Source: Nostoc cf. commune SO-36 (lineage in GTDB: Bacteria > Cyanobacteriota > Cyanobacteriia > Cyanobacteriales > Nostocaceae). From it: 64,000 bases of DNA. Below are positions 48,602-62,786 of this stretch, piece after piece. A program made the position numbers and the translations under genes. The stretch is taken from assembly GCF_023734775.1 (NCBI RefSeq), contig NZ_AP025732.1, positions 2,610,501-2,674,500 of the forward strand, given 5' to 3'. The notes beneath the pieces were generated by a model. It saw only the letters and a program-made list of their open reading frames with translations. It was not told the DNA's origin and searched no databases. Position 1 is the first letter of the stretch; every line of letters starts with the position of its first letter.

Positions 48602-48829
48602 CCAAGCAAGATGCGGATATAGATGTAGTGGCCTGTCGGTTAAATATCACCATGACACAAATTGAAAAGAGCGCGAGCAAAAGTTTTGCAAAACACCTCT
48701 AGCAATGTCATTTATACCGAAATATACTATCCCCCAATTGCTAGAAATTTTGTATATAGTGGGAGGATTCTCAAGGACAATCGGCAAAGCCGCTATTTAC
48801 ACTTAAAGTTTCTGTTAGAGCAAACAGTC

Positions 48830-49513
48830 GTGGCAAGCAACAAGATTTTAGTTATCGATGACACTACAGTTGTCAGGGTAAAAGTACGAGAAATGTTGCC
48901 TCCGGGCAATTTTGACGTACTGGAAGCAAAAGACGGTGTGGAAGGACTAAATTTCATCCTTCAGGAAAAACTCAGCCTAATTATGCTGGATTTCCTGTTG
49001 CCTAAAATGAGTGGCTGGGAAGTTTTCCAGCAAGTTCAAGCCCACCCAGAGTTAAGGAAAATTCCTTTAGTGATCATGTCTGGTCGCAAGGAAGAGGTGA
49101 CGGAGAAAATTACAGAACCATTTGAATATTTTGAATTTCTGGGCAAGCCTTTTGATCAAAAGCAACTAATTAACGCGATTAAGTTAGCTATGGCCAAGGC
49201 GAAACAGCCACGCCCAGAACTAGTCCCAGTAGGAGCAGGGGTTGCTGCCAAAAATGGCACAGTTGCAACCTCTAATGTCGCAACTACTGCGGTAGCAATT
49301 CCTAGCGTTGCCAATACTGCGGTAGCAACTCCTAACGTTGCCAATGCTGCGATGCCTACGGCGGTAAGCAACGCAACTTCTAGTAATGGGGGAGTTTCCG
49401 ACGCTGAAATCAATGCGTTGAATGAGAAAATTGTCAAAATGCAAGCAGAAATTGATGGTTTGAAGAAACAGCTAACTCAGGTTGTGACTTTTATTAAACA
49501 AAAAATCAAGTAG
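48830..49513 (+). CDS. Single receiver-domain response regulator with coiled-coil tail
   Basis: A protein of 227 residues. The receiver domain covers about 1-125, with acidic residues in VIDD, phosphoacceptor Asp in LIMLDFLLPKMSGWE, Ser in VIMSGRKE and Lys in LGKPFDQ. The linker contains two tandem 10-residue units (TAVAIPSVAN, TAVATPNVAN) encoded by two 30-bp repeats at 49286-49345. A C-terminal coiled coil (INALNEKIVKMQAEIDGLKKQL) probably dimerises. It has no DNA-binding domain, so it likely acts through protein contacts, as PatA/PilG-like regulators do. GTG 48830 puts the receiver at the N-terminus; the frame extends to 48662 without conserved sequence. Confidence 0.85.
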   Translation: MASNKILVIDDTTVVRVKVREMLPPGNFDVLEAKDGVEGLNFILQEKLSLIMLDFLLPKMSGWEVFQQVQAHPELRKIPLVIMSGRKEEVTEKITEPFEYFEFLGKPFDQKQLINAIKLAMAKAKQPRPELVPVGAGVAAKNGTVATSNVATTAVAIPSVANTAVATPNVANAAMPTAVSNATSSNGGVSDAEINALNEKIVKMQAEIDGLKKQLTQVVTFIKQKIK

Positions 49514-49908: not shown

Positions 49909-52900
49909 ATGTTAGTAGTATCGGATACATCATATGCATTTCCTGGCTATCGTATTACCGAGCAAGTTTACTCAGGAAGTAAAACCCTAGTTTATCGGGG
50001 CATTAGAGAACAAGACCAAAAATCAGTTGTTCTCAAATTGATGCGGAATGAATATCCTTCCTTCGCGGAAATCGCTCAGTTTCGAAATCAATATATCATT
50101 ACCAAAAACCTTGATATTCCTGGCATAGTCAAAACCTATAGCTTAGAAAGCTACCGTAACAGCTACGTCTTAGTGATGGAAGATTTTGGCGGTATTTCTC
50201 TCCAAGACTGGCGACTGGAAGAAAGGGGGAAGAAGGAAAACAAACTTTCCCTCAATGAGTTTTTCCCCATTGCAATTAAAATTGCTTCTACCCTTGAAGG
50301 ACTGCATCGCAATCGCATCATTCACAAAGATATCAAGCCTGCCAACATCCTTATAAACCCTACCACAGATGAAATAAAACTCATCGACTTTAGTATTGCC
50401 ACCCCCCTACCAAGAGAAATTCAATTTCTCACAAATCCCAACATTTTAGAAGGCACGCTGGCTTACATTTCTCCAGAACAAACTGGAAGGATGAACCGAG
50501 GTATCGACTACCGCAGCGATTTTTATTCCCTCGGTGTTACTTTCTTTCAACTCCTCACCGGACAGTTACCCTTCATCACTAAAGATCCGATGGAGTTAGT
50601 TTACTCTCACATTGCTAAACAACCGTTAAAAGTCAGCCGAATTAACTCCAATATTCCACCAATTTTGTCTGACATCATCAGCAAGCTGATGGCGAAAAAT
50701 GCCGAAGACCGTTATCAGAGCGCTTCAGGGTTAAAGCATGACTTAGAAGCGTGCCAAAACCAGTGGCAAGAAACAGGAAATATTACACCCTTTGAACTGG
50801 GCGTGAGGGATATCTCAGACCGTTTCGTAATCCCTGAAAAACTCTATGGTCGTCAAAGTGAAGTTGAAACCCTACTCGCTGCTTTTAAGCGTGTGACAGA
50901 GGGGGCAACAGAAATGATATTAGTTGCGGGTTTCTCTGGCATTGGCCAAAACTGCTGTGGTCAATGAAGTCCACAAACCCATTGTGCGGCAGCGTAGCTA
51001 CTTCATCAAAGGAAATTTGATCAGTTTCAACGTGACATTCCCTTATCAGGATTCGTGCAAGCTTTTCGGGACTTAATCGCACAACTGCTATCGGAAACTG
51101 ATGCCCAAATTCAAGAATGGAAAGCCAAAATTCTCAGAGAATTGGGTACACAAACTCAGGTAATTATTGATGTAATTCCTGAACTCGAACAGATTATGGG
51201 TAAGCAACCTCCGATTACAAAAATCTCTGGCAACGCTGCCCAAAATCGGTTCAATTTATTATTTCAAAAATTCATCAAAATCTTTACTACGAAAGAACAT
51301 CCCTTAGTTATCTTTCTTGATGACCTGCAATGGGCAGATACAGCTTCTTTAAGATTAATTCAGTTATTAATGTGTGAAAGTAAGTTGTCTCCTCTATCAG
51401 AAGAGATAGAACATCTTTATGAAAAGCAGGGAGGTCTATTATTAATTGGTTCCTATCGAGATAATGAAGTTTTTAAGGGACATCCGCTTTATTTAACATT
51501 ACAACAAATTGAACAAACAGCAGTAACTATTAATACGATCACTTTAGCACCGTTAAATCAGGGTGATTTAAATCATTTCATTGCTGATACCCTTCATTGT
51601 CCTGAAGTAGCTGCTGTTGCTCTTACCCAGATGGTGTTTGCTAAAACTAAAGGCAACCCCTTCTTTTCCGCTCAATTCCTCAATTCTTTACACCATGATG
51701 GACTAATTTTCTTAAATTCTGATGTTGCTTATTGGCAATATGATATTTCCAAAGTCAAAGAAATAGCTCTCACAGACGATGTAGTAGAATTTATTGCCCT
51801 GCAAATAGGAAAATTGCCAATACATACCCAAAAAGTTTTGAAAATGGCTGCGTGTATTGGTAATCAGTTCGACTTAAAAACTCTAGCGATCGTCAATGAA
51901 AAATCTGTAGTAGATACAGCATCAGACTTGTGGCAAGCATTGCTTGATGGGCTAGTTTTACCACAGACTGAAAACTACAACATTTTTTCCCAAGATAATA
52001 ATAATCAAGATTTGATTGTTGATGGGATAGAAGCTACACAATTTTCAATTTCTAATTTACAGCTACCTAAATATAAATTTGTACATGACCGAGTGCAACA
52101 AGCTGCTTATTCTTTAATTCCTGAAGAACAAAAAAAGCCAATTCATTTAAAAATTGGGCTACTGTTATTCAACAATATTCCAGTTGTAGAACAGGAAGAA
52201 AAGATTTTTGAGCTTGTCAATCAGTTTAATATTGCAGCAGAATTCATTTCCCCTCAAGCTAAACGAGATGAACTAGCCCAGATGAATCTAATTGCTGGAC
52301 GTAAAGCTTTAGCATCTACAGCTTATCCCGCGGCCGTTAAGTATTTAACTACTGGCATCAAACTGTTGGCAGGTGATAGTTGGGAGATGAAACATCATCT
52401 CACCCTGGCTTTATATGAAACTGCGACAGAGGCAGCATACCTAGCTGGCAACTTTGAACAGATGGAGGAATTGGCAGAGGTGGTGTTGGTACGTAAACCA
52501 CTGCTAGAAAAAGTAAAAGTTTATGAAGTCAAAATTCAGGCTTATGGGGCACAGAACCAAGCATTGAAGGCTGTAAATACTGCCCTAACTTTTTTGAAAC
52601 TTTTGGGAGTGGAGTTTCCTGAGCATCCAAGTCAGTCAGATATTCAGCTAGCAATGGCAGAGTTAACATTAAATCTTAGCGGCAAGCGTATTGAGGATTT
52701 AATTGACTTGCCTGAGATGACAGAGGAGCAAGCTTTAGCATCTATGCGTATTCTATCGAGTGCGCTTGGTCATGCCTATCAAGTTTTTCCTGTAATTTAT
52801 CCCTTGTTTGCTTTTAAACAGATTAATTTATCGCTTAAATACGGTAACACTTCCTTATCAGCCTATGCCTATGTAGCTTATGGGGTAATACTCTGCGGGG

Positions 52901-55584
52901 TAGTAGGAGATATTGAGTTTGGCTATCAATTTGGGAAACTGGCTGCAAGTTTGTTAACTCGCTTTAATGCTAAAGAAGTTAAAGCTAAGGTTATAGAGGT
53001 ATTTAATGCTGCTATCCGGCATTGGAAGGAACATGCCAAGGAAAACTTAAAACCTTTACTGGAAGCATACTCTGCTGGGCTAGAAACGGGAGATTTAGAA
53101 TATGCAGCCTATGCTCTTAATGTTTATTGCTACTGTTCATATTTTGTTGGTAGAGAACTGACCGGACTGGAACAGGAGATGGCAATTTACAACAGTGCGA
53201 TCGGTCAAATCAAGCAAGAAACAGTATTTAACTGGAGCGCGATTTATCGGCAGAGTGTCTTGAACTTGATAGGTACTGGGGAAAATCCACATCTTTTAAT
53301 TGGTGAAGCCTACGATGAAGAGAAAATGTTGCCGATTCACCTGGAAGCAAATGATGGCATGGGACTGTTATATTTATACTTAACTAAATTGCATCTCTGT
53401 TGCCTATTTCAGAAATACTCTCAAGCGGTTGAAAATGCTAGCTTGGCAGAAAATTATTTACATGGTGGGATTGGACAGTTAGTTTTTCCTATATTCCATT
53501 TTTATGATTCACTAGCTAGACTGGCAGTTTATTTTGATGTTGATGAATCTGAACAAGAACAAATCTTAAATAAGGTTGTTGTCAATCAAGAAAAGATGCA
53601 GCACTGGGCAAATCATGCCCCAATGAATTATTTACATAAGTTTTATTTAGTTGAGGCAGAGCGGCATCGAGTTCTTGATCAATATATAGAAGCAATGGAT
53701 AATTACGATCGCGCGATCGCCTTTGCTAAAGAATATGAGTATATCAACGAAGAAGCTCTTGCCAACGAACTTGCCGCTAAATTTTATCTAGAACGGGGCA
53801 AACAGAAGATTGCCCAAACCTACCTAACTGATGCCTACTATGGTTACATTCATTGGGGAGCATTAGCGAAAGTTAACGATTTAACAAAACTCTATCCCCA
53901 ATTACTTACTCCTATACTCCAGCAAGAAAACCTGAGTATCCATCCCAGTGATGAAAGTACTTCTGTCAATAACATATCTATATCATCTTTATCTACCTTA
54001 AGCGATCAACAAACTGTTATTGGCTCAAAGAGAAGTATTTCTGATTCTCTGGATTTAGCCGCATTTATTAAAGCATCTCAAGCCCTCTCTGGAGAAATCG
54101 AGCTTGAGCCACTACTTTCTACTTTAATGGAAGTTGTTATGGAGAATGCAGGAGCCTCTAAATGCGCTTTAATTTTGAGTGAAGGTGATAACTTAGCATT
54201 AACTGTGACAGCAGTGTGTTCAAATTTGCATTTTGATCGTACCTATACTGAGTTTCCATCAACTTGCCTTGAATTAAGCTACGATGTTCCTGTTACTTTG
54301 ATTAACTACGTTAAACGCTCCAGAGAAATCTTAGTTATTGATGATATAAATACTGTTTCTTTTTTAGCAGGTGACAGCTACATTGTTACTGAAAAACCGA
54401 AAAGTTTGTTGTCTATACCTCTTCAAAATCAAGGTAACTTGATTGGGATTCTTTATCTAGAAAATAATCTGACTACAGGAGCATTTACACGCGATCGCGT
54501 AGAAGTTCTCAAACTCCTCACTACTCAAGCGGCAATATCTCTAGAGAATGCTATCCTCTACAAAAATTTGGCACAAGCTAAAGAAAGCTTGGAAGATTAC
54601 AACCATACTTTAGAAGAAAAAGTCCAGGAAAGAACGCAAGAACTCAACGACAAAAATCACTGTTTACAAGAAACTCTACAGGAATTGCAACGTACCCAAA
54701 TCCAATTGATTCAAAGCGAAAAAATGTCTTCTTTGGGAGAAATGGTCGCAGGAATTGCTCATGAAATCAATAACCCCATTAACTTTATTCATGGCAATAT
54801 TAATCATGCTAGTGAGTACGTCAAAGACTTGCTAGATTTAGTAGCTGTTTATCAGCAGGAATATCCCCATACTTCGCCCTTAGTTGAGGATAAAGCTGAG
54901 GAGATTGACATAGATTTTCTAGTAAAAGACTTGCCAAAGATTCTAGATTCAATGAAAGTGGGCAGTTCACGGATTAGAGATATTGTTTTGGGCTTACGCA
55001 ACTTTTCTCGCTTAGATGAATCTGAGATGAAGCCAGTAGATGTTCATGAGGGAATAAACAATACCTTAATGATTTTACAACATCGCCTTAAAGAAAAGAG
55101 CGGTCTTCCAGAAATTGAAGTTATCAAAGAATACGGAAAATTACCGGAAGTTATTTGTTATCCTGGTCAACTAAATCAGGTGTTTATGAATATCCTGAGT
55201 AATGCGATTGATGCTTTAGAAGATTCATTTCTTATTGATCATCCATCATTGGTAAATGAAAAAGAGCAAATAATAAAACACATAGACGCATCATCAGCTT
55301 CTCATAGGGTAGGGCAAATTCACATATTTACTGAACTAACAGATTCTAATACGGTGATAATTCGGATTGCTGATAACGGTTCTGGCATGACAAAAGTAGT
55401 GCAGCAAAAAATCTTTGACCCATTTTTTACCACCAAGCCAGTAGGAAGTGGCACGGGGTTGGGGTTGTCGATTAGCTATCAAATTATTGTGGATAAACAC
55501 AAGGGTAGTTTAACCTGCGATTCCACATTAGGAGAGGGGACTGAGTTTGTGATTGAGATACCAATGCAACAGTCAGATATCTAG
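49909..55584 (+). CDS. Giant Ser/Thr kinase-AAA ATPase-GAF-histidine kinase (two compensating frameshifts)
   Basis: About 1,890 residues when corrected. Domains in order: a Ser/Thr protein kinase (about 10-275; [11 protein letters not shown] catalytic loop, DFSIATPL); an AAA-type ATPase (Walker A at 50935-50960, [20 protein letters not shown] as Walker B); a long helical TPR-like region; GAF (about 1380-1550); coiled coil; and HisKA with His near 1618 ([19 protein letters not shown]) plus HATPase ([18 protein letters not shown]). One extra C near 50945 (GGCCAAAAC) and one missing A near 51020 (GGAAATTTG) shift about 25 codons and create a stop; correction restores GFSGIGKTAVV. Such hybrid kinases lie beside the terpene synthase and P450 genes in known Nostoc mini-clusters. 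Confidence 0.88.
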
Positions 55585-55955
55585 CTAGACTAGTAACGCT
55601 TCTTTTACAGCACTTCCGGCAGCTATGAGGTACATCCTCAAAGCTAAAAGCTATGTTAGGAGAGAGGCAATAAGAAAAACTGTATTGCATAATAGCGGGA
55701 AGCGCTGTAAAATACAAAGTTTGGTTAAGTAGAGCGAAACCTAAAATTTGGAAGTTTGTCGAGTTTTGCTCTGTTCTAACCAACCTAAAATTATAAAAAC
55801 CCAGTTTTTGTAACAAACTGGGTGATTTCTAAAACTCATCAAAACAACTCTGACAAGCTACTATAAATCAATTAGGTAATCCTGGAAGAACCTCTTACCA
55901 ACCTTTGTAGGGGAGGAAGCTGAATGGTTAGGTTTTTGATTCCTGAATCGATGCT
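55585..55955. other. Spacer between convergent giant kinase and P450 genes
   Basis: No gene seen. It contains the hairpin at 55799-55823 listed separately. The remainder is unremarkable. Confidence 0.45.
55799..55823. terminator. Probable bidirectional terminator
   Basis: Perfect 9-bp stem ACCCAGTTT (55799-55807) / AAACTGGGT (55815-55823), 7-nt loop, with A-rich sequence on the left and T-rich on the right. It could terminate the convergent kinase and P450 transcripts. Confidence 0.55.
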
Positions 55956-57346
55956 CTAAGATACAAGTGTAGTTGTCATATTAACTAAAGACTCTTGTCG
56001 CGCACGTCGTCCTGTAATTACCATCTTGACTCCACTGGAAGGCGCAAGGGTAAAACCTCGGCGCTGAGGTCGCTCTGTTCGTCGATCAACTAGCGCTAAC
56101 TGATAGCGTGACAAGACGGTTGCTAATACTAGCTTCATTTCAAATATAGCTAAAGCCTCACCAATACAACGACGGACACCGCCACCAAAGGGCAGAAATT
56201 CATAGGGAGAAAATTGACGTTTAATAAAGCGCTCTGGTTGAAACTCCTTTGGTTGGGGATATAAATCTTCACGCTGATGAGTTAGATAAATGTTGGGAAG
56301 CAGTACAGTCCCAGGCTCTAAAGAATGTCCCAACAGCTGGGCAGGTTCTTGTACTACTCTGGGAAAAGAGAATATGACGACGGGGTGAATTCGCAAGGTT
56401 TCATTGCAGACAGCACTTAAATATGACAGTCGGTAAATGCTCATGGGATCTGGAGAATCACCCAGGGTATCCAATTCTTGAAGTAGTTTTTCACGGACTA
56501 GGGGCTTTTGGTGAATCCAATACAATCCCCAGGCGATCGCCGTTGCTGTAGTTTCATATCCCGCAACGATTAGAGTCATCAACTGATCGCGCAACTCCTG
56601 ATCTGTCATCGATTGACCAGTGTCATCCTGTGCTGATATCAACATGGATAAGATATCGTTGCGGTGTGAATCATTTTGCTCCCTGCGTTCGCTAATTTCA
56701 GCGTAGATCAATTTATCAATTTGCTGGCGATCGCGCAGAAACTTTCCCCAAGGACTCCAAGCTCCTAAATCCTGTTGCAAGAATGAGAAAAACAATAAAC
56801 TAGAACTCAAAGGTGACTGAAAAATATCTAATATCTGCGGCAATAGATGCTTAAGTTTTGAAGTTTTTCTCCTTCATTCAAGCCCAAGACAACCTGTAAA
56901 ATAACTTGTAGGGATATTTCCTGGGTTAAATTTCGAGCAAAGAAGTGCTGATTTAGTGGTAACTGATTAAAAACTTTTGTACACAGACCACAGATCCTTT
57001 CACCATAGACCTGCATTTGCTCTCCATGAAAAGCAGGAATTACAAGTTGTCGCTGTTGTTTGTGACGAGTACCCTCTAGTAAGGCAACTGAATATTCCCC
57101 TACTAAGGGTTCGCCAATTTTGTTCATCTTGCCAACAGCAGCAAATTTATTTCTATCATTAGTTAAAATTTCCTTGATTGCTTGGGGATGGTTCACGAAT
57201 ACTACAGTGTCCCCAAAACCAATTATCTTACCAGTAAAAATGTCAGGATACTGTTGAGTAGCTTTTTCCATATATCGAACAGGGTCAGCTACCCATTGCA
57301 GCTTTTGGAGGAAAGAAGGGGTTTTTAGAGGATTAGGTAGTTGCAT
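55956..57346 (-). CDS. Cytochrome P450 of the CYP110 type (one frameshift)
   Basis: A haem monooxygenase of about 463 residues when corrected. The N-terminal frame (56828-57346) begins MQLPNPLKTPSFLQKLQW. The C-terminal frame has the I-helix oxygen-binding AGYETTATAIAWGLYW, ExxR in NETLRIHP, the PERF region and the haem-cysteine motif FLPFGGGVRRCIGEAL. The frames join near 56850, where the coding strand reads CTTCAAAACTTAAG; one extra A gives EKLQKLKHLLPQILDIF. It lies about 200 bp downstream of the terpene synthase on the same strand. In Nostoc sp. PCC 7120 the equivalent P450 oxidises the sesquiterpene made by its neighbour, so a tailoring role is likely. No membrane anchor is evident. Confidence 0.88.
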
Positions 57347-57548
57347 TTAATGGAAAGGGGTAAGGAGATATCATGAGATAACGGTTTGCTTCTTTCTGAT
57401 ATGGCATTAAAATTCAGGTTTTATAGTGAACCTTCAAAAAATAAAAGCCCAACCAATATAATCAACATAGTTGTATTTATTAGAACTGATGAAGGAGCGA
57501 TAGAGCCAATCTAACTTCCCTTTTTTATTTGGAAGCTATACTATTTAA

Positions 57549-58517
57549 TTAATATTTAGCTAGCTCCAGCATTTCTACAGTTTTGTAGCGAGCAGTGAAG
57601 GAATACCAATCGAGATTCCCACGTATCCAAGCATGAATTCCTAATATATATTTTGCCAATTCAGCATCTATTTCTTCTCCAAAAGATGGAATGCTTGCTT
57701 CCAAATCTACCAATTTTTGAATCTCATGATCGTGCATTTTTGTAGCAAGCTTCATTGCTTCTTCTAAAGAAATTTTGTGTTGGCGGTGTAGCACGAATAC
57801 TAAATTATGAACATGACCAGTTGCCAATTCTCTAGATAATGAAAAGATATCATTAGACCAGCCCAGAAGATTATTTGTAATCTCATTAAGTTGGTTAAAA
57901 ATATCCTGTTTTCGTAAAAAATCAGGAATTATCAACTGATCGCAAAGTTCAATTAATGGCAAGGCAACATCTGCACCTGCGCTTAATCTACGCATTGCAA
58001 TATAAGTCTCAGTATCGGGTACAATTCCATCTACACGGTTATTTGCTTCTTCAAAACAACCGTATAAATATTTCTCAAAGCCGCAGATGAAATAATTTAA
58101 CCATTTCAGGCTTGCTTTTTCAAGCATTCGCGCTCGTAAGTTACTTAAAGCACGACTAAGAGGTATATCGTGGCTTGTAACTTCTGCCCCATTTAATATT
58201 TCTATAAATCTCTTGTGAATACCTTTTAGAAGTTCAGGTTTTGTTTTCAAGTCTGATAGATCGCATTGATCATCCCAAATAAATAGCCAACTCAACCAGT
58301 CATTTGCTATCTTCAGTTCTTGAAAGTTACAATATGGATAGGTAGTGGCTGCTATTAAAAAAAATTTAGACTTGCAGAAACGCTGATAAGATGATTCATT
58401 TGCCAGAAGATTGAAACCGAGTACCCATTCAAGGCTATACTCTTCCAGAGAATCAATATTTTTATTGATTTGTGATGAAAAAGGACAGTATAAAGCTGGA
58501 GATATTAATCTTTCCAT
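57549..58517 (-). CDS. Class I sesquiterpene synthase
   Basis: A terpene cyclase of 322 residues. The first metal-binding motif is DDQCD (residues 82-86, in LFIWDDQCDLSD); the second is NDIFSLSRE (222-230), fitting NDxxSxxxE; an RRLSAGADVA segment (about 176) and a C-terminal WIRGNLDWYSFTARY match bacterial sesquiterpene synthases. It should ionise farnesyl diphosphate and cyclise it. With the CYP110-type P450 and the giant kinase, the arrangement equals the mini-cluster characterised in N. punctiforme (8a-epi-alpha-selinene) and Nostoc sp. PCC 7120 (germacrene A). Which product is made here cannot be read from sequence. It is not the two-domain geosmin synthase. ATG start. Confidence 0.93.
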   Translation of the reverse strand: MERLISPALYCPFSSQINKNIDSLEEYSLEWVLGFNLLANESSYQRFCKSKFFLIAATTYPYCNFQELKIANDWLSWLFIWDDQCDLSDLKTKPELLKGIHKRFIEILNGAEVTSHDIPLSRALSNLRARMLEKASLKWLNYFICGFEKYLYGCFEEANNRVDGIVPDTETYIAMRRLSAGADVALPLIELCDQLIIPDFLRKQDIFNQLNEITNNLLGWSNDIFSLSRELATGHVHNLVFVLHRQHKISLEEAMKLATKMHDHEIQKLVDLEASIPSFGEEIDAELAKYILGIHAWIRGNLDWYSFTARYKTVEMLELAKY

Positions 58518-59222: not shown

Positions 59223-60542
59223 ATGAATTATGAGCCAGATATAAAAATGCTTTATACACCAGGAGACAGTTTAATTTTAGTGGTGGATGATACTGCTACA
59301 AATTTAGAGATTGTCTTTAGCATATTAACTAACGTCGGCTTTAAAGTTATTACAGAGAATGATGGAAAAAAGGCGATTAAACAGGTTCAAGAAAGATTAC
59401 CTGATTTGATTCTGTTAGATGTAATGATGCCTGGAATAGATGGATTTGAAACTTGTAAAAGGCTGAAAGAAAACTCAGACATTTGTGATATACCCGTAAT
59501 TTTTATGACAGCCAATTCTGATACTGAGAGTAAGGTAAAGGGTCTAAATATGGGGGCAGTTGATTACATTACTAAACCATTTCATGAAGAAGAATTATTG
59601 GCTAGAATTAAAACCCATCTGCAATTACGAAATCTTACCAAAACTTTAGAAAAACGAGTTGCCGAAAGGACAGCAGCATTATCTAGGGTATTAAAAGACC
59701 TACAAGAGTCTCAACTTCAGCTTGTACAGACAGAAAAAATGTCTGCCCTTGGTCAATTAGTAGCAGGAGTTGCTCATGAAATTAATAATCCAGTTGGTTT
59801 CATTCATGGCAATCTTGGACATGCTTCAGTATATTTCCAAGAAATGAGCAACCTCATTGATCTTTATCAGCATCACTATCCTAATCCAGTTCTAGAAATT
59901 GAAGAGCAAATTGCAGCGATAGATTTGAAGTATGTGCTTACCGATCTACCTAACTTAATTTCCTCAATGAAAGAGGGCGTTCAGCGCATTCGTGACATTA
60001 GTACCAGTCTTAGAACCTTTTCTCGAGCAGATAGCGATCGCAAAATTTCTTGCAATATTCATGATGGCATTGACAGTACAATCATGATTCTCAAACACCG
60101 CTTAAAAGCATCCGAGAATCGTCCTAATATTCAAATAATTAAAGATTACGGTAATTTGCCAGAATTAAAATGCTTTATCGGACAGCTAAATCAGGTATTT
60201 ATGAATTTGTTAGCTAACGCTATTGACGCTTTAGAGGAATCTAATATAGGACGCACCTATATTGAAATTGAAGCCAATCCCAATCAAATTTTGATTCAGA
60301 CTATTCTTGCTGAAGATAAAAACTATATCTTGATTCGGATTAAAGATAATGGAGTGGGAATGTCTGCTGATATCCAGCAAAAAATATTTGACTATTTATT
60401 CACCACCAAGCTTGTTGGTCAAGGCACAGGACTAGGATTATCAATTGCTCGTCAAATTGTTGTCGAAAAGCATGGAGGAACTCTGGAAGTGAACTCAGCA
60501 ATAGGAAAAGGTTCAGAGTTTATCATTAAGCTTCCTATTTGA
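59223..60542 (+). CDS. Receiver-histidine kinase hybrid
   Basis: A soluble protein of 439 residues. The N-terminal receiver (about 15-135) has Asp66 in LILLDVMMPGIDGFE and Lys in DYITKPFHEEEL. A coiled coil (LTKTLEKRVAERTAALSRVL) leads to HisKA with His185 ([19 protein letters not shown]) and an HATPase with QVFMNLLANAIDALEES (N box), IKDNGVGMS (G1) and [19 protein letters not shown] (G2). The kinase part is closely related to those at 61743-62786 and in the giant kinase. It is first of three genes on the plus strand, followed after 42 bp by a FIST gene. ATG start. Confidence 0.92.
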   Translation: MNYEPDIKMLYTPGDSLILVVDDTATNLEIVFSILTNVGFKVITENDGKKAIKQVQERLPDLILLDVMMPGIDGFETCKRLKENSDICDIPVIFMTANSDTESKVKGLNMGAVDYITKPFHEEELLARIKTHLQLRNLTKTLEKRVAERTAALSRVLKDLQESQLQLVQTEKMSALGQLVAGVAHEINNPVGFIHGNLGHASVYFQEMSNLIDLYQHHYPNPVLEIEEQIAAIDLKYVLTDLPNLISSMKEGVQRIRDISTSLRTFSRADSDRKISCNIHDGIDSTIMILKHRLKASENRPNIQIIKDYGNLPELKCFIGQLNQVFMNLLANAIDALEESNIGRTYIEIEANPNQILIQTILAEDKNYILIRIKDNGVGMSADIQQKIFDYLFTTKLVGQGTGLGLSIARQIVVEKHGGTLEVNSAIGKGSEFIIKLPI

Positions 60543-60584
60543 AAATCATTCCAAAAATAATTCTCCATCTATACAGATAAATTT

Positions 60585-61736
60585 ATGTTTAAGGCAGTAG
60601 TAGGTCACAGTAACGATCCAGATTCTCTATCAGCAGTTGAAGAAGTTCTTCAGCAATGTGTCAGTTCTCTTGCAGGAGATATACCAAAAGCTGGAATTCT
60701 TTTTGCTGCAATTGACTTTGAGCATTCTCTCATTTTGCAACAAATTCATCAGGCTTTTCCGGGGATTGAGTTGATTGGTGGAACCACAGATGGAGAAATT
60801 TCTTCAGTCTTAGAGTTTCAGCAGGACTCAATCAGCTTAATGTTGTTTTGCTCAGACGAAATTGAAATTTATGCAGGAGTTGGACGCAAAGTTTCAAATG
60901 ATCCAATTACTGCAACTAAACAAGCTGTGGAGCAAGCTCAAGCAAAAAGTACCGCGCCTCCAAAGCTATGCTTAACTCATCCAGAAAGCCTTACAACTAG
61001 CGGTGTCTCTATATTGAATGGCTTAAAGCTAGCTCTTGGTCAAGATGTACCAATATTTGGTGGTTTGGCAGGCGATCAATCAAGATATGAAAATACATAT
61101 CAATTTTTTCAAACGGAAGTATTAAGTGATTCTGTACCAATTCTGCTTTTTTCCGGCACAATATTGTTTTCCCACGCTGTTGCAAGTGGTTGGCATCCCA
61201 TTGGTCAAACAAGCAAAGTAACTAAAGTGGATAAGAACATTCTCTATGAAATAGATGGTAAGCCAGCTTTAGATTTTTATCATCATTATCTAGGTTTGCT
61301 TCCTCCTTCAATGGAATATCCATTAGCAGTGTTTGATCAGAATGGAGAGAGTTTTTATATAAGAGCGCCTATTGCTTACAATCAAGAATCTGGTAGCATA
61401 ACTTTTTTTGGAGATATTCCCGATCAGGCAATTATTCAAATTTCGGAAGCAGCTTATGAAGATATTATCGCCGCTTCCAAGGCTTCATTCATGAATGCTT
61501 TAGATAATTATCCTGGTGCAGAACCAAGTGCTGTTTTGCTTTTTTCATGTGTAGCTCGTCGGCAAATACTTGGTACAAGGGCACAAGAAGAGTACCAGAA
61601 TACGAAACTTTGTCTGACCGACTATTTACCTGCCTGTGGGTTTTATTCTTATGGAGAAATTGCTCCTATGGATGGAATTAGCCAGACGCAATTTCATAAT
61701 GAGACTTTTGTAACTTTAATTCTGGGAAATCGGTAA
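60585..61736 (+). CDS. FIST N/C-domain sensory protein
   Basis: A soluble protein of 383 residues composed of FIST_N (about 30-215; GIELIGGTTDGEISS, VPIFGGLAGDQSRYENTYQFF) and FIST_C (about 220-365; GKPALDFYHHYLG, LLFSCVARRQILGTRAQEEY, ACGFYSYGEIAP). FIST domains are proposed ligand sensors, perhaps for small molecules such as amino acids, usually linked to two-component or chemotaxis proteins. Here the sensor is a separate gene between two histidine kinases, only 6 bp from the second, so it is probably the shared input of both. The ligand is unknown. ATG start. Confidence 0.9.
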   Translation: MFKAVVGHSNDPDSLSAVEEVLQQCVSSLAGDIPKAGILFAAIDFEHSLILQQIHQAFPGIELIGGTTDGEISSVLEFQQDSISLMLFCSDEIEIYAGVGRKVSNDPITATKQAVEQAQAKSTAPPKLCLTHPESLTTSGVSILNGLKLALGQDVPIFGGLAGDQSRYENTYQFFQTEVLSDSVPILLFSGTILFSHAVASGWHPIGQTSKVTKVDKNILYEIDGKPALDFYHHYLGLLPPSMEYPLAVFDQNGESFYIRAPIAYNQESGSITFFGDIPDQAIIQISEAAYEDIIAASKASFMNALDNYPGAEPSAVLLFSCVARRQILGTRAQEEYQNTKLCLTDYLPACGFYSYGEIAPMDGISQTQFHNETFVTLILGNR

Positions 61737-61742
61737 CAACTG

Positions 61743-62786
61743 ATGGAAATATTAAATTACCAACAAGAAATTAAGGAACTAAAAAAAACGAATAGGATTA
61801 TCCAAAAGAAGTTGGAACGATCTGAATCAGATCGGATAAAACTTGAAGAAACAAATCAAAAAAAAGAATGTTTACTCAGGAGAGTAATTGATGAGTTAAA
61901 AGAATATCAAAATAAATTAGAGGAAAGAAGTAATGAGCTAGAAATGATGCTTCTTAATCTTCAGGTAATGGAGAATAAGATGTCTACTTTGGGAAGTATG
62001 GTCGCAGATGTAGCTCATGAAATTAACAACCCAGTTGGCTTTATTGCAGGTAATCTAACTCCGGCTAAAGAGTATATTGAGGATTTATTACATCTCATCG
62101 ACCTTTATCAGCAGACCTATCCCAAAGCATCTGGGCAAATTCAAGAAACAATCAGAGTGATTGACTTAGAATATGTGCGTGAGGATCTACCTAAACTTAT
62201 TTCCTCAATGAAAGAAGGTACAGATCGTATTTCCAACATTAGCAATAGCCTGCGAACTTTCTCTAGAGGAGATACAGAACAAAAAGTTCTGTTTAATCTT
62301 CATGAAGGTATTAACAGCACTCTCCTGATTCTCAAGCACCGTTTACAAGCTAATAAGATTCGTCCGGCGATTGAACTAGTTAAATATTACACAGAATTTC
62401 CCCTAGTAAAATGCTTTCCAGGACAATTGAATCAGGTATTTATGAATTTATTGGCAAATGCTATTGATGCTTTAGAAGAATCTAACTATGGACGGAGTTT
62501 TAATGATATTAAGGTAAATCCCAATCAAATTACAATTCATACTGCTCTCACTGAAGATAACAATCATGTCTCGATTCGGATTCAAGATAATGGGGTGGGA
62601 ATATCGGCTGATGTTCAGCAAAAAATGTTTGACCATTTATTCACAACTAAACCTGTGGGGAAAGGAACAGGATTAGGATTATCAATTGCTTATCAAATAA
62701 TTGTCCAAAAGCATCAAGGTACTCTAGAAGTAAATTCTATGTTAGGAAAAGGTTCTGAGTTTATAATCACTATTCCACTTTATTAA
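61743..62786 (+). CDS. Soluble sensor histidine kinase with coiled-coil N-terminus
   Basis: A protein of 347 residues. The first 78 residues are a charged coiled coil without a sensor domain. Then come HisKA with His92 ([19 protein letters not shown]) and an HATPase ([39 protein letters not shown]). The kinase core is strongly similar to that of the receiver-kinase at 59223-60542. The start codon is 6 bp after the FIST stop, so co-translation is likely and the FIST protein is the obvious input partner. The cognate receiver may be the one fused to the first kinase of the operon. ATG start. Confidence 0.92.
   Translation: MEILNYQQEIKELKKTNRIIQKKLERSESDRIKLEETNQKKECLLRRVIDELKEYQNKLEERSNELEMMLLNLQVMENKMSTLGSMVADVAHEINNPVGFIAGNLTPAKEYIEDLLHLIDLYQQTYPKASGQIQETIRVIDLEYVREDLPKLISSMKEGTDRISNISNSLRTFSRGDTEQKVLFNLHEGINSTLLILKHRLQANKIRPAIELVKYYTEFPLVKCFPGQLNQVFMNLLANAIDALEESNYGRSFNDIKVNPNQITIHTALTEDNNHVSIRIQDNGVGISADVQQKMFDHLFTTKPVGKGTGLGLSIAYQIIVQKHQGTLEVNSMLGKGSEFIITIPLY

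Follow-up and report, generated by a model that had tools for sequence, protein, structure and literature searches.

The 64,000-nucleotide window analysed here (Nostoc cf. commune SO-36, contig NZ_AP025732.1, positions 2,610,501 to 2,674,500) contains a terpene synthase (TS), a cytochrome P450 and a convergent giant kinase with Ser/Thr kinase (STK), ATPase, GAF and histidine kinase modules. One segment of this kinase, named KC and lying within its second open reading frame (ORF 2, KIN_rest), was found to have evolved largely as TS has and partly as the P450 has. A different history is common to the remainder of the kinase and the flanking genes. This evolutionary matching, together with a predicted fold, suggests with a probability of about 0.7 that the genes of the cluster constitute a signal and its matched receptor, in which case the kinase would be the cognate receptor for an oxidised sesquiterpenoid.

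The core set comprised 18 loci with common flanks, namely lipA and a response regulator at one end and a hybrid kinase at the opposite end. In this set the median pairwise protein identity was 93% for lipA, 86% for the response regulator, 87% for the STK part, 81% for the rest of the kinase, 78% and 72% for the C- and N-terminal halves of the P450, 59% for TS and 83% for the hybrid kinase; a FIST gene and an antiporter-like gene, where present, showed 88% and 92%. Synonymous divergence (pS) was 0.53 for TS and 0.51 for the P450 N-half, and 0.27-0.41 for lipA, the regulator, the kinase, the P450 C-half and the hybrid kinase. The flanking histidine kinase HK61743 (median 64%, pS 0.58) was left out of the background, as it is absent from several loci and its matches mix paralogues. 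The divergence of TS was scarcely correlated with that of the flanks in the core loci (r = 0.12 and 0.10). Low TS identity is general at this locus, and the possibility that the window carries a one-off foreign TS allele was rejected.

Loci entered the TS-KC statistics when the matches to TS, KIN_STK and KIN_rest each covered 75% of the query. This retained 52 of the 58 loci of a first set, window included, and 28 of the 31 loci of a new set (L038, L155 and L171 were dropped). The new set keeps L154, a near-duplicate of L099 from the first set; L154 was excluded from the clustering into types, from the comparison of same-type with different-type pairs, and from the P450-partial and position analyses. 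Tests on 17 loci used the core set minus L112, those on 22 loci the 22 of 24 core candidates with all flank genes, and the floor of the Mantel p-values was set by 500 to 2000 permutations. When the kinase was scanned against TS in 50-residue steps with the background removed, a strong correlation was obtained only at about residues 551-850 of ORF 2 (r = 0.47-0.72 in the 17 core loci, 0.44-0.56 in all 52), with a weaker shoulder at residues 851-950 (r = 0.45 and 0.32, 17 core loci). Kinase stretches of equal variability (50-60% identity) at residues 101-150, 301-351, 951-1003 and 1054-1103 gave r values of 0.13, 0.08, -0.01 and 0.18 in the 52 loci. The new 28 loci showed the peak at the same position (r = 0.50, p = 0.001), and the N-terminal part of their kinases gave r = -0.10. 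On the side of TS, the co-variation with KC was distributed along the whole length of the protein.

Comparison of trees led to the same result. With 17 loci, imposing the TS tree on the KC alignment cost 138 log units, versus 690 to 927 for the trees of other kinase parts and flanks, and the TS alignment lost 144 on the KC tree versus 757 to 1101 on the other trees. The corresponding losses with 22 loci were 78 versus 1318-1407 for KC and 151 versus 1485-1598 for TS, and the P450 alignment lost 302 and 478 on the trees of TS and KC, respectively, versus 1088-1164 on the other three. It was considered that such tests might reflect a mere effect of long versus short branches; this was rejected, since a topology-only comparison with re-optimised branch lengths altered the losses little and the shared splits agreed. 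TS and KC have 10 of 19 splits in common, P450 and TS seven, and P450 and KC five. TS, KC and the P450 each share a single split with each of the kinase N-part, the kinase C-part and the flanks, which share seven to eight among themselves. The kinase C-part thus has the history of the flanks, yet it is located between KC and TS on the DNA. Every foreign tree was rejected by the approximately unbiased (AU) test, and the histories are therefore similar, not identical.

The matching was also evident as discrete types. Among 282 pairs of loci with a similar kinase background, the 225 with TS identity below 70% had KC medians of 63-64%, versus a median of 86% (range 61-100%) where TS identity exceeded 80% (53 pairs). 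None of 3160 pairs combined TS below 62% with KC above 85%. Clustering of 79 loci at 74% identity gave 34 TS types and 37 KC types, singletons counted; eight multi-member sets were identical for TS and KC, and one large KC set merged three TS types. With a similar background, the excess of same-type over different-type pairs was 0.16-0.23 within KC and did not go beyond 0.08 elsewhere. As expected of a pherotype, TS and the KC segment share a type that the flanks do not, with six exceptional pairs. Partial correlations over 66 loci were 0.54 for KC and TS given the P450, 0.39 for KC and the P450 given TS, and 0.09 for TS and the P450 given KC. KC depends on both enzymes, and the P450 contributes independently.

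As controls, unlinked HstK-type kinases were selected by frame length and identity. One group (9 genomes, centre 93% identical) gave r = 0.12 with TS (p = 0.32), and group B (10 genomes, centre 40% identical) gave r = -0.17 (p = 0.88); the TS-linked kinase of the same genomes gave 0.84 (p = 0.003) and 0.71 (p = 0.0005), respectively. The two groups span 9 and 10 of the 16 core genomes searched, and group B possibly mixes paralogues. They replaced the paralogues in L211 and L212, which had been intended as controls and whose orthology across strains was unclear. Flanking genes did not follow TS either (lipA 0.01, response regulator -0.08, hybrid kinase -0.05). Fast evolution of KC was not accepted on its own as proof of a link. 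Across species, a comparable KC deficit is present in unlinked members of the subfamily, which are also fast-centred at 60-80% background identity, so that this feature alone seems not to be specific to TS-linked copies. The argument from a fast centre alone is further ruled out by group B, whose variable centre does not follow TS.

Structure prediction, based on an alignment of 76 of 94 sequences, placed KC within a solenoid resembling tetratricopeptide repeats (TPR), for which the top structural alignments were the pheromone receptor Rap and the sensor domain of MalT. MalT is a STAND regulator whose TPR-like domain III binds maltotriose; its output is DNA binding, whereas the outputs here are kinases and the proposed ligand is a terpenoid. 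The likeness to the RRNPP receptors (Rap, NprR, AimR), which combine a TPR fold with a cognate peptide, lies in the predicted fold, and the kinase was not assigned to that group. Comparison of the solenoid profile with sequences of solved structures returned one weak match, to a designed protein. In the proposed mechanism, TS would make a sesquiterpene, which would then be oxidised by the P450 or, in other strains, by the oxidase that stands in for it. The product would bind at KC, in the solenoid between the ATPase and GAF domains, and binding would switch the STAND-type ATPase and hence the Ser/Thr and histidine kinase outputs. The nature of the ligand, its direct binding to KC and the control of the kinase by binding are all inferred. 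The sequence-only reading had proposed that the sesquiterpenoid could be a signal made or sensed through the kinase, an idea to which the KC-TS correlations, the trees and the controls give strong comparative support. More tentatively, heterocyst-forming cyanobacteria might possess a polymorphic pheromone system with oxidised sesquiterpenoids as type-specific signals. Each of dozens of TS/oxidase types would then have its matched solenoid in a STAND-type dual Ser/Thr-histidine kinase, and strains would exchange the types as lock-and-key pairs.

Several observations weigh against the matched-receptor reading. Six pairs have TS above 80% and KC of 65% or less (L154 left out). Five of them differ in the P450 (identity 57-76% in the N half and 65-74% in the C half), and the sixth is without P450 data. 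These pairs are not independent, as L047 occurs in two; other pairs whose P450s differ to the same degree still have a matched KC, for example L071/L149 (P450 68/73%, KC 91%). The AU test still rejects the TS tree for KC (deltaL 78-138), so that the match is imperfect. TS followed the kinase background in all 52 loci (r = 0.52), the STK part was weakly linked to TS (r = 0.23, p = 0.005), and the kinase C-part gave r = 0.18 (p = 0.027) in the new 28 loci. For sequences that are related, p-values from partial Mantel tests are approximate. The KC deficit of unlinked copies mentioned above, with a centre equally fast across species, also belongs here; the few close pairs in that comparison come from one group. 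As for the fold, ranking by Foldseek E-value put unrelated TPR proteins first, MalT domain III at rank 30 and Rap outside the top 50; TPR-like solenoids are common, and a common fold is no proof of function.

The distribution of the genes was evaluated in 217 genomes of the host's family, 96 of which contained TS at a threshold of E ≤ 1e-50; a few of these matches are fragments or distant. A convergent kinase was located within 5 kb of TS in 81 of 90 TS loci. Among the other nine, L081 and L073 lie close to a contig end, and L073 has its kinase at the lipA site on a different contig. TS and a kinase of this subfamily are about 77 kb apart in L146 and about 0.9 Mb apart on one contig in L155; in L068 the kinase is truncated and on another contig; in L055 a deletion joins remnants of TS and kinase; and L066 has lost the P450 and the kinase, the closest kinase segment elsewhere in its draft genome reaching 50%. 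No such kinase was seen in the stretch examined around TS in L054 and L171. The subfamily was likewise not found near nine distant TS loci (L056-L064, 32-45% identity, some on short contigs). On the other hand, 13 of the subfamily kinases retrieved had no TS in the stretch examined, seven of them at the lipA site. Linkage of the kinase to the synthase/P450 pair, the consistency of which the sequence-only reading had made a point to be checked, is thus high when viewed from TS and does not hold when viewed from the kinase.

In some loci the place of the P450 is taken by a flavin amine-oxidase-like enzyme (L053, L115, L116), a FAD_binding_3 protein (L169) or a flavin-containing monooxygenase-like (FMO-like) protein (L167), and in L157 and L160 by a dissimilar P450 (32-34% identity). 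Since the oxidase is exchangeable, the ligands may be chemically different among loci. In L038 (5491-10436, G330) the intact pair is accompanied by an additional P450 and by another TS copy, which is broken. In L168 (9436-10677) a gene for a major facilitator superfamily (MFS) transporter, a possible exporter of the product, stands between TS and P450.

Other explanations of the matching were also considered. The TS and P450 proteins might themselves touch the kinase solenoid, in which case an interface and not a small molecule would co-evolve. Such contact would likewise give links of KC to TS and to the P450 with almost no link between the two enzymes, and proteins are often bound by TPR-like solenoids. 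It is nevertheless improbable: the type-specific KC positions include few charged residues and are about half hydrophobic, a composition more in keeping with a pocket than with an exposed interface; the kinase is kept in the loci with a flavoenzyme or a dissimilar P450; and the co-variation runs along the whole TS. Joint exchange of KC and TS by recombination, without functional matching, would fit neighbouring genes that both show raised divergence; it would also fit the P450, which lies between the two and whose history tends towards that of TS. However, the kinase C-part between KC and the P450 retains the history of the flanks, which argues against simple linkage, and the hypervariable centre of an unlinked kinase does not follow TS. 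Hitch-hiking is thus judged very improbable.

A different alternative accepts the terpenoid as the ligand and does without cell-cell signalling: the kinase would read the terpenoid of its own cell, as feedback or stress control. This seems rather unlikely. It agrees with the lack of a membrane-spanning domain among the domain matches of the kinase and with the reported activation of the P450 gene alr4686 of PCC 7120 by the iron regulator FurA (PMC4788461). Against it, the many discrete matched types in one genus and at one locus resemble the diversifying selection expected for cell-cell signals, a pattern that is not exclusive to them.

The matched signal-receptor reading can be compared with known systems. 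In ComQXPA and agr, a variable signal-making gene is paired with a matching variable part of the sensor inside a conserved locus. The same pairing is proposed for the cluster, where the signal would be a sesquiterpenoid instead of a peptide and the receptor a presumably cytoplasmic dual kinase. ComQXPA is a polymorphic quorum-sensing locus (PMC4008528). The cyanobacterial trio itself had been recognised by the sequence-only reading, and three papers agree (PMC4558948, PMC3411444, PMC2176072). In PCC 7120, the germacrene A synthase alr4685 adjoins CYP110C1 (alr4686), a germacrene A hydroxylase (PMC3411444), and all4687 is listed as an STK-GAF-HisKA dual kinase (PMC2176072). In Fischerella, a synthase, a P450 and a "putative hybrid two-component protein" are likened to the 8a-epi-alpha-selinene cluster of N. 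punctiforme (PMC4558948). The three gene types are those of the window, and all4687 is convergent to alr4685-alr4686 as judged from the gene names; the window TS is a divergent type. The kinase resembles the HstK / cbSTKIII dual kinases (PMC2176072) in joining STK, GAF and histidine kinase in one protein. Its subfamily differs from them in mostly adjoining TS, where there is one, and in the type-specific segment of its solenoid. A matched TS-kinase polymorphism was not found among the matches listed in a literature search that covered titles and the beginnings of abstracts and few subscription journals. The trio is already published; the apparent novelty is an explanation of the kinase's association with TS and P450. 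Many bacterial terpenes have an obscure purpose, and few inputs are known for the large dual kinases of cyanobacteria; a matched pair would answer both questions. If the reading is true, it would provide a terpenoid signalling system whose specificity types are built in, a list of loci for testing and a natural set of terpenoid-sensing domains.

Features of the terpene synthase-P450-kinase cluster in the window
Feature	Position	Strand	Basis or remark
Class I sesquiterpene synthase (TS), intact, 322 aa	57549..58517	-	PF19086 160.6 bits, motifs, Foldseek
Cytochrome P450, N-terminal part	56828..57346	-	PF00067; frame lost near 56856-56859
Cytochrome P450, C-terminal part with heme-binding motif	55956..56843	-	PF00067, FGGGVRRCIG
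Giant kinase ORF 1: STK domain and beginning of AAA/STAND-type ATPase	49909..50967	+	frame lost near 50946
Giant kinase ORF 2 (KIN_rest, 1509 aa): remaining ATPase, helical solenoid, GAF, histidine kinase	51055..55584	+	
Segment KC (KIN_rest aa 551-850), within TPR-like solenoid; proposed ligand-recognition region	52705..53604	+	co-variation with TS
Kinase GAF domain	54100..54543	+	domain match
Histidine kinase module: HisKA, HEINNP, HATPase_c	54733..55569	+	history that of flanks, not of TS
Response regulator upstream of kinase, same strand, conserved flank	48662..49513	+	

The gene calls of the sequence-only reading were confirmed. TS shows the features of a bacterial class I terpene synthase, namely the aspartate-rich motif (DDQCD at residue 82), the NSE triad (NDIFSLSRE at 222), the RY pair at 310 and the PF19086 fold. 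Its best Foldseek matches in PDB were T-muurolol synthase chains (TMt 0.93-0.96, 34-35% identity), the closest full-length TS outside its own small clade has 66% identity, and it is the only PF19086 match in the whole genome (7.41 Mb, 5 contigs). The P450, predicted about 200 bp downstream on the same strand, starts 202 bp after TS; both of its halves match PF00067, and the heme cysteine motif and ExxR are present, with the reading frame broken here. The CYP110 label given to it in the sequence-only reading derives from work on PCC 7120. The convergent kinase, on the opposite strand to TS and P450, scored 136.7 bits for STK (PF00069) and 27.5 and 58.6 bits for AAA_16 in its two ORFs (cut-off 32.6). 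GAF and HATPase_c were also matched, and HisKA was slightly under its cut-off (26.3 versus 26.9 bits). STK, GAF, HisKA and HATPase together define the HstK / cbSTKIII dual kinases, and they form one open frame in close relatives; the AAA_16-type ATPase followed by a helical repeat solenoid is the arrangement of STAND proteins. A scan against NCBIfam gave nothing above the cut-off for the proteins covered (for kinase ORF 2, among the best 25 of 59 families). The upstream response regulator is a possible phosphorylation partner of the kinase.

The kinase is broken by two frameshifts and the P450 by one, interruptions that the sequence-only reading had not mentioned; TS is intact. Alignment of each site with 11 relatives located an extra C at about 50946, inside the Walker A motif, and a missing A at about 51013 in the kinase, and one missing A at about 56856-56859 in the P450. 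All three are one-base changes, and two fall in runs of A. In 60 kb on the right side, 9 of 44 genes of the relative G383 are broken in the window genome (reverse, 1 of 47), and in 51 kb on the left side none of 17 (reverse, 1 of 16). Against the relative G453, 4 of 30 genes are broken, this kinase among them (reverse, 2 of 29). Since 9 of 61 nearby genes compared with G383 are also interrupted, the frameshifts may be assembly errors. This survey of the neighbourhood makes assembly error at least as likely as pseudogenisation, and the frameshifts were not accepted as proof of pseudogenes. The interrupted genes relative to G383 were located at about C1:2680800-2727800 of the window genome (G000), a region that suggests either assembly errors or many pseudogenes.

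Alternatively, the cluster might be decaying in this strain, with the P450 and kinase as pseudogenes and TS alone working, which would be compatible with the receptor model elsewhere. The closest relatives, in which the cluster is broken up in differing ways (deletions, a truncated kinase, a TS remnant, separation of TS and kinase), lend this some weight beside the three frameshifts. In L066 the kinase and P450 are deleted; in L206 and L068 the kinase is truncated at KIN_rest residue 1177, and TS, on a different contig, carries a frameshift; L207 retains an unbroken kinase match, whereas TS is reduced there to about 116 residues and the P450 is missing; and in L146 and L196 TS and kinase are about 77 kb apart, and no P450 was found near either. 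Loss of the kinase in the close relative G453 was considered and rejected, an unbroken kinase being present at that distance. The many interrupted genes of this assembly point the other way, as does L067, which has TS, an unbroken P450 match and the visible part of a kinase up to the contig end. Decay is hence regarded as somewhat doubtful.

Adjoining the cluster, positions 59223-62786 encode a response-regulator/histidine kinase, a FIST-domain protein and another histidine kinase, and parts of this gene set also flank TS in many Nostoc loci. The FIST-domain protein resembles the nitric oxide (NO) sensor NosP, with 91.5 bits under a cut-off of 450. In the response regulator at 48662-49513, the two ends are conserved and the linker that joins them is variable (60% identity over columns 181-240 of the alignment). 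Among other dual kinases, the group L222-L231 has a centre 40% identical between Nostoc species and ends of 71-81%. Such kinases might sense other variable ligands, or the group might mix paralogues. Three matches of the group stand in tandem at G480:C247:487-18270.

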